A stretch of DNA of 64,000 nucleotides from NCBI GenBank assembly GCA_903859815.1, contig CAIOOA010000153.1:62001-126000 (forward strand). Direction: 5' to 3'. A program made the position numbers and the translations under genes. Positions 39,348 through 41,993 of this stretch are shown in pieces (position 1 is the stretch's first letter; every line of letters starts with the position of its first letter). This stretch comes from an uncultured Methylococcaceae bacterium (GTDB taxonomy: Bacteria; Pseudomonadota; Gammaproteobacteria; Methylococcales; Methylococcaceae). The notes beneath the pieces are model-generated. The model did no database searches. It worked only from the letters and a program-made list of their open reading frames with translations, and was not told the origin of the DNA.

Positions 39348-41993
39348 TCACCAGGGAGAACCCAAGACAACCCGAAACCCAAGAGAGTCGTAACGAAGGT
39401 AAGGAAGGAGCCTGACGCGGATCGCACAGCGAAGGTTGACCGTCCGATCGCCCCAGGAACCGCCGCGAAGCGTTCTTTCCGCGCTGCCCCCCAATATTAT
39501 TTTATTTAGTGGCATGGGTTTTGCATATTCATTTAGACACCATTCCCAAACATTGCCCGCCATGTCCATCGGCCTTTCATCGGGCCAGTCTTGGGCATAC
39601 AGGCCCACAGCTATGGTTCGATTCAACTGACTTTCATCACTGTTGCAACGCCGTTCCTGCCAATCCTGTCCCCACGGGTAGGTGTTGTTGGAATTGCCGT
39701 GGCAAGCGGCTTGCTGCCATTCCCATTCGGTTGGCAGGCGCACATCTTGGCCCAAGCGCTGGCTCAACCAGCGGCAATAGGCCATCGCTTCAATCCATGC
39801 CACATTGACCGCCGGGTGATTGCCATAAGCCGGGAATTGCCGACCGGGTTCTTGGTAATAACGTTTCGGCAAGCCTTCCCACCAGCGGGGATGGGCGTAG
39901 CCGTCTTTGGCATCAATAAACAATTGATATTGGGCTTGGGTGACGGGGTATTTGGCAATCCAGCCCGCTTCCACGTCGAAGCGACCCGCGTCGTTTGCCA
40001 ATTCCACTGTTCCGGCTGGAATGGGACACCAGACGAGGTCGGGCAGGCTGTCTTGAACTCCCACCCCTGGCCGTTCATCGCCCAATAAGGCCAAGCGCAC
40101 ACCGATAGTGGCGCGGAGTTCATGGGACGTGTCCGCTTGCCGAATCAATGCCAGCATATCCTCACGCTGCACCGGGCCGAGGAAGCGGGTTTCCATTTCC
40201 GTGGGCTGGTATCGCAAAGCCCGAATCATCGCCCCTGCTTCCAAAGCCAAGGGGTCCAGCCAGCGGAAGGCTTCCGGCTGGCCACGTCTTACCCATTCCT
40301 CCGCATCGCGTTGCAAGCGCTTGCGCATCAGCAATTGGTCTTTACGCCCATCAATCCAGTCTTTCAGCAAGGGCCAGTTGCGGAACAGGGCTTCGTGGGC
40401 GACTTCCAAGGTTGGCTCACGCTTGGAATCGGGGGAAATATCGGTCAATAGCAGACGCGCTTCAATAAACGCTTGAATCAGTTGCTGCGCGGGAGTGGTT
40501 TGATTGGTTTGATTGTCATGGCCTAAACCCCAAACAGTTAAAGGCACTCGCCGCCGGGTGGCTGCGCCGCTGTGTTCGTCAATTTCCACCAATTCGCGGA
40601 ACACTTCGCCCAATAAGTCAGACTTGGATTGTGGCATTGACAAATCCAAGGAACCAAACACCTGTTCGGCTTTGTCGGCAATCGCGCCTTCGATGCCACC
40701 AAAGGCTTGATACGCTTGGCTAGGCATCCGTTGCCCTTCTCGTTGCTCATACAACCGTTCCAAGGCGAAGGCCATCAAGGCCAAGTTGCCGGGTTTTAGC
40801 CCGGTGTCTTTGACAATCTGCTCCGCCAGCCCAGCCTCAAATTCCAGCCCAGCCAGCTTGGCCGGCCCTTTGACCATCGCTTGCAAATCCTCCGCATCGG
40901 GTGCGGCTAACAGCAATTGCCCCGAATTAAACCAAGCCGTCATGTGCTTGCCAAACGCCTCGCAATCCATGCAAGCCCCGAGGAACTCCGCCCGCATCGT
41001 CGCCACGACCCGCACTTTGCCAGTCGCCATCAAATCGTCCAGAGCATCAATGAAGGGTTTGCGCAAATTGGGCGCGACCAAGCTGAACAATTCCTCGAAT
41101 TGATCGACAAACACCAATAGCTGCGAGTCCGACTCGGTTTTTAAAACCGAGTCGGACTGTTCTAGCAGTGGTTGCAATGCCGCCCCACCCGCTTGCAGGG
41201 CTTTTTTGACCGGGGTGTAACGTTCGTTTAAGGCAGTGGCGACGGCCTCAGCTAATACTTTGACCGGGGTGAAATCCTCATCGCCATGGTATTGTGCCGG
41301 GGTTATCCTTTCCCAAAGCCAATGGCTGAAACCACCGACTTTCCAACGATTTAACTTCGGCAATAAACCCGCCCAAACCAAGGACGATTTGCCCGCCCCG
41401 GAAGCGCCGACCACGATGACGAAACGTTGGTCAGCCAGTTTTTTCGCCAGTTCTGTTAACTCTGCCCCGCGCCCGAAAAACACATCGGCTTGCTGGTCTT
41501 TCAGTGCTTCCAATCCACGATAAGGCGGGCCTTGGGTGGCGATATTCCAAGTCGGTTCGGGGTAGGGTTTCGGCGGAATGGGAGCCAACGGGTTCCGGCA
41601 TACTTCAAGCAAGTCTGCCAATGCGCCAGAGGCATTCTCGCGAAAATCCACATAATCATACCGGCTGATGGTGTCTGGAATGTTGCAATCATTCAATAAT
41701 AGCGGGATAAAGCGGCGGTCATGCTTGGACGGGGAGCGAAACAGGCTTGTGTGACTTTCCATATTCACCCAATCCGATTCCAAGGCATCAGACGAAAAAC
41801 ACATAATCAGTGTGCGTGAAGCCTCCAGACCCTGATTAATGACGAGTAAGAAATCATCGCCCGGTTTGATGATCCAATCGTCAAACCACACATGCAAACC
41901 CGCCTTTTGCAAATGCTCGGCGAGTTGTCGGACGCGGGTTCGGTCCTTGGAGCTATAGCTTAGGAATACATCGTAAGTGAATTGGGGTTCCAT
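39348..41993 (-). CDS. TIR - STAND NTPase - FGE/C-type-lectin-fold conflict protein
   Basis: 881 residues. The TIR domain is at about 1-135 ([15 protein letters not shown]), with the candidate NADase Glu79 in [8 protein letters not shown]. A STAND-type NTPase spans about 165-600, with Walker A [11 protein letters not shown] (195-204), Walker B [12 protein letters not shown] and [12 protein letters not shown]. The C-terminal formylglycine-generating-enzyme (FGE-sulfatase/C-type lectin) domain spans about 650-881 ([51 protein letters not shown], RGGSW...LGFRVV). Such proteins use the lectin-fold end as sensor, oligomerise through the NTPase and deplete NAD+ through TIR. The last ~35 codons look like a DGR variable region. 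A palindrome encodes residues 280-289. A MITE lies 79 bp upstream. Confidence 0.9.
   Translation of the reverse strand: [881 protein letters not shown]
39369..39467 (-). other. Candidate diversity-generating retroelement variable region (VR)
   Basis: Between the fixed RGGSW and LGFR motifs, the codons at expected variable sites are GGC, GAT, GTC, AAC, ATC, GTC, CTC, CTT, TAC, CTT, TAC, GAC and TCT: all end in a pyrimidine, with first and second bases freely varied. Interspersed framework codons (CGC TGT GCG, CGC, CCT, CGT, CTT GGG TTT CGG) are adenine-free. This is the pattern left by adenine mutagenesis of an AAY-rich template. No template repeat or reverse transcriptase was seen in this window, so the donor cassette would have to be elsewhere. 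Confidence 0.6.
41126..41158. repeat. In-frame palindromic element within the TIR-STAND gene
   Basis: A perfect inverted repeat with 16-bp arms (AGTCCGACTCGGTTTT and complement) around one base. On the coding strand it reads [10 protein letters not shown]. Core and frame are the same as in the palindrome at 14051-14081 in the CHAT gene. It lies between the STAND Walker A and Walker B motifs, where loops vary in length. Confidence 0.85.

Follow-up and report, generated by a model that had tools for sequence, protein, structure and literature searches.

Within the window, that is, the whole 64,000-nucleotide stretch analysed here from the genome of an uncultured Methylococcaceae bacterium, a relative of methane oxidisers, the segment at 39355-39467 is very probably the remote variable repeat (VR) of a diversity-generating retroelement (DGR), rewritten in trans from a template repeat (TR1) that lies on a different contig. 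The VR forms the 3' end of a gene for a TIR-nSTAND1-FGE protein, only 4 bp separating its end from the stop codon. The features involved are collected in Table 1.

Variable Repeat and Template

With the VR coding strand as query, TR1 was located in the genome from which the window is taken (5.8 Mb in 315 contigs, 99% complete), on contig C157, where its neighbours are a gene for a ferritin-like protein on one side and a NACHT-FGE target gene on the other. The VR retained all 85 non-adenine bases of TR1 and differed from it at 19 of the 28 adenines (A>T at 10, A>G at 7, and A>C at 2), which confinement of 19 out of 19 mismatches to the 28 adenines among 113 template bases has a hypergeometric probability of 4e-15. 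As a consequence, 14 of the 18 mutable codons were changed, resulting in 12 amino-acid changes. The adenine-free 3' end of the VR, by analogy with the BPP-1 prototype, is a candidate for an initiation segment of the IMH type.

A previous, sequence-only reading of this DNA had proposed that the region at 39369-39467 was hypermutated by a remote DGR, and the A-rich template found on another contig of the same genome, which template explains every mismatch, bears that proposal out; the core of the region had been placed correctly, but the homology with the template is wider by the stretch down to 39355. The 13 codons selected in that reading between RGGSW and LGFR, on the minus strand, have the sequence that was stated and all hold template adenines, 11 being changed and two (AAC and ATC) unchanged with respect to TR1. 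The list of variable codons was nevertheless incomplete, in that it missed CAA>CGG (Q to R) along with the silent CGA>CGT and CTA>CTT; and the codons AGG and ACG, which had been assigned to the framework and are indeed unchanged, both contain template adenines.

Table 1. Location of the VR, its template, and the associated features; positions without a contig name are those of the window
Feature	Location	Strand	Description
Variable repeat (VR)	39355..39467	-	113 bp, encodes RGGSW...LGFRVVLGS; 19 substitutions, all at TR1 adenines
A-free 3' end of VR	39355..39380	-	GGGTTTCGGGTTGTCTTGGGTTCTCC; identical in TR and VR
Template repeat TR1	G000:C157:23735-23847		Other contig, same MAG; search with VR coding strand
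Target gene	39348..41993	-	ORF and Pfam; 881-aa TIR-nSTAND1-FGE protein
TIR_2 domain	aa 9-123 of the target protein		Pfam
nSTAND1 NTPase domain	aa 157-574 of the target protein		Pfam
FGE-sulfatase/C-type-lectin-like domain	aa 673-876 of the target protein		Pfam
3' module	39240..39354	-	About 115 nt; pyrimidine-rich tract and hairpin
Candidate DGR target hairpin	39251..39263	-	ACCGC[GTA]GCGGT then CGCGATTTTTTT; 92 nt past VR end; GNA triloop
MITE-like repeat	42072..42348	.	Dispersed repeat
RT/Avd fusion remnant	L012 12471-12710 (G000:C157)		RT codons 1-47 joined in frame to Avd tail; no new stop
Second complete DGR cassette	L011 6163-10931 (G000:C274)		nSTAND1-FGE target, Avd2, RT2, TR2

Target Protein and Surroundings

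According to Pfam, the target protein combines an N-terminal effector (TIR_2), a central STAND NTPase (nSTAND1), and a variable C-terminal FGE domain, which order is the layout of antiviral STAND/TIR sensors. When modelled with AlphaFold2 (mean pLDDT 84.7, pTM 0.89), the FGE domain matched, upon structure comparison, both formylglycine-generating enzymes and TvpA of Treponema denticola (Treponema variable protein 1, 2y3c), the latter being likewise a variable protein with an FGE-like C-type-lectin fold and matching the domain in both sequence (E 2e-6) and fold (E 7e-13, third in rank). TvpA, to our knowledge, has neither a TIR nor a STAND domain attached. From what is known of the C-type-lectin fold we infer that the residues subject to variation (aa 848-870) are together on one exposed face of the FGE domain, and that face would be the ligand-binding surface of the TIR sensor. 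The domain is presumably the sensor of a TIR/STAND defence protein, for which phage would be the ligand and cell death the event triggered through the TIR domain.

Downstream of the target gene, the stretch at 35538-38810 had, in the ORF translations inspected by eye, the look of a polyhydroxyalkanoate operon, with PhaC-, PhaE-, and phasin-like products, so that the sensor gene stands beside ordinary metabolism with no evident defence island. Upstream, at a distance of 79 bp, is located a dispersed MITE-like repeat with 46 matches in the genome; since the sister species lacks that repeat at the corresponding syntenic position, the insertion is probably recent, and it may have an effect on the expression of the target gene. 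Farther upstream a perfect 24-nt inverted repeat, with its arms 70 nt apart, occupies 43354-43471, and the surrounding stretch (approximately 43323-43517) likewise matches nothing at the syntenic position of the sister genome.

Concerted Evolution of Template and Variable Repeat

The named members of the genus that we found are lake Methylococcaceae MAGs. In one of these, the sister species G002 (isolate Loclat_bin-06492), the orthologue of the target protein is 92% identical to that of the window and its surroundings are syntenic. The VR of the sister orthologue has no non-A mismatches to its own TR, with 15 adenines changed, and 6 such mismatches to the TR1 of the window genome; conversely, the non-A mismatches of the window VR number 0 against the TR1 of its own genome and 5 against the TR of the sister. 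At the five sites that differ between the templates of the two species and are non-A in both, each VR follows the resident template in all five cases. Because each VR thus matches the template of its own species, these diagnostic sites included, we consider that there is strong evidence that the VR was rewritten from a template on another contig after the species had split. The two orthologues, furthermore, differ at just the sites that had been predicted to vary, namely at 18 of the 28 VR adenine sites as against 170 of the 2532 bases outside the VR (6.7%; P = 1e-14).

Among the other species, G001 carries an orthologue that departs from its template at a single non-A base. In G003 two genes agree at 83 of 83 compared non-A sites; TR1 was not found in the assembly of that species. 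Two further VRs of the sister species (L087 197-309 and L088 419-531) display 6 non-A mismatches to the template of the window genome as against 10 to their own, and to judge from those counts seem to retain an older form of the template. Separately, a DGR locus on contig C59 of G006 (L085, 2716-8471) comprises one TR-like repeat (at 3016) and an RT, around which three genes with VRs are arranged on both strands.

Elements 3' of the Variable Repeat

The 3' module that follows the window VR shares 76-93% identity with the modules of the remaining TR1-family VRs in this genome and is absent after the TR, while in global alignments the 300 nt upstream share 63-65% with the window copy and the sequence further downstream 55-61%. 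At the end of the TR1-family modules stands a CCGC[GNA]GCGG hairpin accompanied by a T-run. All 7 fresh VRs have that core intact, as against 3 of 7 decayed ones (P = 0.07), an orthologue with a 4-bp stem being scored as intact. An effect of the downstream hairpin is at this P value suggestive only, and the hairpin in the window may be a terminator, which would look similar, instead of a DGR target hairpin.

Loss of the Reverse Transcriptase at the Template Locus

The genes that follow TR1 in the sister species encode a 1010-aa target, a full reverse transcriptase (RT1), and an Avd. In a comparison of that RT1 with solved structures the best match was 8ub7 (E 2.5e-50), which entry is the RT of the BPP-1 DGR, the next match having an E of 8e-17. 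The DGR RT near TR1 is thus intact in G002 and is also present in G001, whose contig breaks at the VR, but is deleted in the window genome, in which a stretch of 1166 bp (1.17 kb) matching G002 L080:3734-4899 is gone. A protein of the Avd family NF033474 stands beside RT1 in the sister and beside RT2 in the window genome, where TR1 is accompanied by no more than a fragment. Searches of the window genome with the RVT_1 profile and the RT of contig C274 as queries found no complete RT1; apart from the C274 RT itself, they hit only the RT1 remnant and, on C30, an RT resembling those of group II introns; the sole DGR-type RT is therefore that of the other cassette, on C274. The sequence-only reading had anticipated both a template and a DGR reverse transcriptase in this genome, as was found, with TR1 on C157 and a DGR with RT and Avd; the adjacency that it anticipated between the two is intact in the sister, but TR1's own RT has been lost here.

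The deletion, seen in the one MAG of the window species, appears young because the RT portion of the remnant (codons 1-47) carries, with respect to G002, 7 synonymous changes and 1 nonsynonymous one and the Avd tail none in 32 codons plus the stop. Misassembly of a mixed population is a possible source of the deletion. Since the remnant looks fresh, a recent loss of RT1 or a locus polymorphic for it is likelier than the use of a second RT.

The template, the VR and its remote position, the adenine-only changes, the rewriting after speciation, and the deletion can all be read from the sequences; the cDNA mechanism is drawn from the DGR prototype. By that analogy, TR1 RNA would be reverse transcribed by RT1 together with Avd, with errors at adenines, and the mutated cDNA would then replace, in trans, the VR of the TIR-nSTAND1-FGE gene on the other contig, which replacement could alter up to 18 codons of the FGE domain. 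The last such rewriting would most likely have preceded the RT1/Avd deletion, or else intact alleles coexist in the population.

TR1 has other targets. It also templated the VR that ends the NACHT-FGE gene beside it on C157, which encodes 1004 aa and whose VR is 3.5 kb away, with 84 of 85 non-A matches, and drifted relatives are present in a gene on C251 (TIR, NACHT-like, FGE; 79/85, 6 mismatches), another on C154 (FGE; 67/85, 18 mismatches), and a third on C38 (TIR-FGE; 67/85, 18 mismatches), which three VRs are, judging by those mismatches, older, decaying copies. We also considered TR2, of the C274 cassette, as the template of the window VR and rejected it, as TR2 equals TR1 at only 47 of the 85 non-A positions of TR1, all of which the VR shares.

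An alternative, which we regard as unlikely, would make of TR1 an orphan template served in trans by RT2 and Avd2, with the window VR still being rewritten. The window genome has no other intact DGR pair, and the cassette of these two looks live, in that its VR differs from TR2 at adenines alone over the shared length. In G005, moreover, RT1 was deleted independently, at a different junction and with Avd spared, TR1 was kept, another DGR RT is present, and one remote VR has no non-A mismatches to TR1 and 19 adenines changed. Yet RT1 and RT2 are only 43% identical, TR1 and TR2 71%, and the flanks of the two templates are unlike; the orthologue of the window gene in G005 has drifted to 5 non-A mismatches and the VR beside TR1 to 6; and because the RT1 remnant still bears the mark of purifying selection, a recent loss of RT1 suffices. 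If TR1 were nonetheless used by the RT and Avd of another DGR, templates would outlive their own RT, and a single mutator would be shared by several templates and, along the chromosome, by immune sensors at remote sites. The window genome, the RT1-positive sister, and the RT1-deleted G005 together offer a natural comparison in which to examine if the RT of another element is open to a DGR template, of which use we know of no experimental test.

Less probable still, and in our judgement doubtful, is that trans diversification ended long ago and left the window VR a frozen fossil. RT1 is indeed deleted, and decaying VRs do exist in this genome, as on C251, C154, and C38; but the window VR, unlike those copies, has no non-A mismatches, carries all the species-specific changes of its template, and is followed by an intact hairpin. 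That FGE paralogues underwent ordinary positive selection or gene conversion, with no DGR involved, has next to no probability, for although many such paralogues share RGGSW...GFR, those processes can explain neither adenine-only mismatches to an A-rich template outside the target genes nor the match of the VR in each species to the template resident there. Drift or positive selection by itself is likewise ruled out by the template match and the A-site divergence between orthologues.

Relation to Known Systems

The collection of literature searched contained no paper on DGRs in Methylococcaceae. In Thiohalocapsa sp. PB-PSB1 and related multicellular bacteria, DGRs diversify nSTAND1/NACHT proteins with FGE/CLec C-termini (STAND-type targets of clade 5D), some of them with a TIR, remote targets being recognised by a perfect non-A match to a distant TR and some loci being without an RT; a role as antigen sensors is a proposal of the same authors (Dore et al., 2024, PNAS; PMC10907252). 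The present case shares with that set the target architecture, the occasional N-terminal TIR, the presence of several DGRs per genome, the remote targets matching the TR at all non-A sites, the RT-less loci, and the MITE-like repeats near DGR loci. It differs in the host, here an uncultured lake Methylococcaceae, and in the manner of RT loss, which was by plain deletions here, whereas in the Thiohalocapsa set MITE-like arrays or transposons replaced or interrupted the RTs; in addition, the comparison of species here reveals template changes carried into a remote VR. Architecture, remote targets, and RT loss were therefore all already described for Thiohalocapsa (PMC10907252); what is new is the host group and the species-by-species tracking of the template, the evidence being unusually clean. 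A TIR-STAND sensor rewritten at a distance can thus be recognised from sequence alone, through the presence of species-specific template changes in the remote gene of that same species.

The BPP-1 DGR (bRT, bAvd, mtd; PMC3240598) has in common with the present one the A-specific transfer from TR to VR, the Avd family, a homologous RT, and, with the window hairpin as a candidate only, a hairpin downstream of the VR; its action, however, is in cis, the target being a tail protein of the phage, whereas the VR here is remote. BPP-1 requires the hairpin downstream of its VR, and within the phage set the hairpin loops are GRNA and lie 4-34 bp from the VR (PMC3240598). The hairpin of BPP-1 has an 8-bp stem and a 4-nt GAAA loop and is close to the VR, whereas that of the window has a 5-bp stem and a GTA triloop at the greater distance listed in Table 1. 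The VR of the C274 cassette, for its part, is followed by a stronger 8-bp hairpin, ATGGGGGC[GTA]GCCCCCAT.
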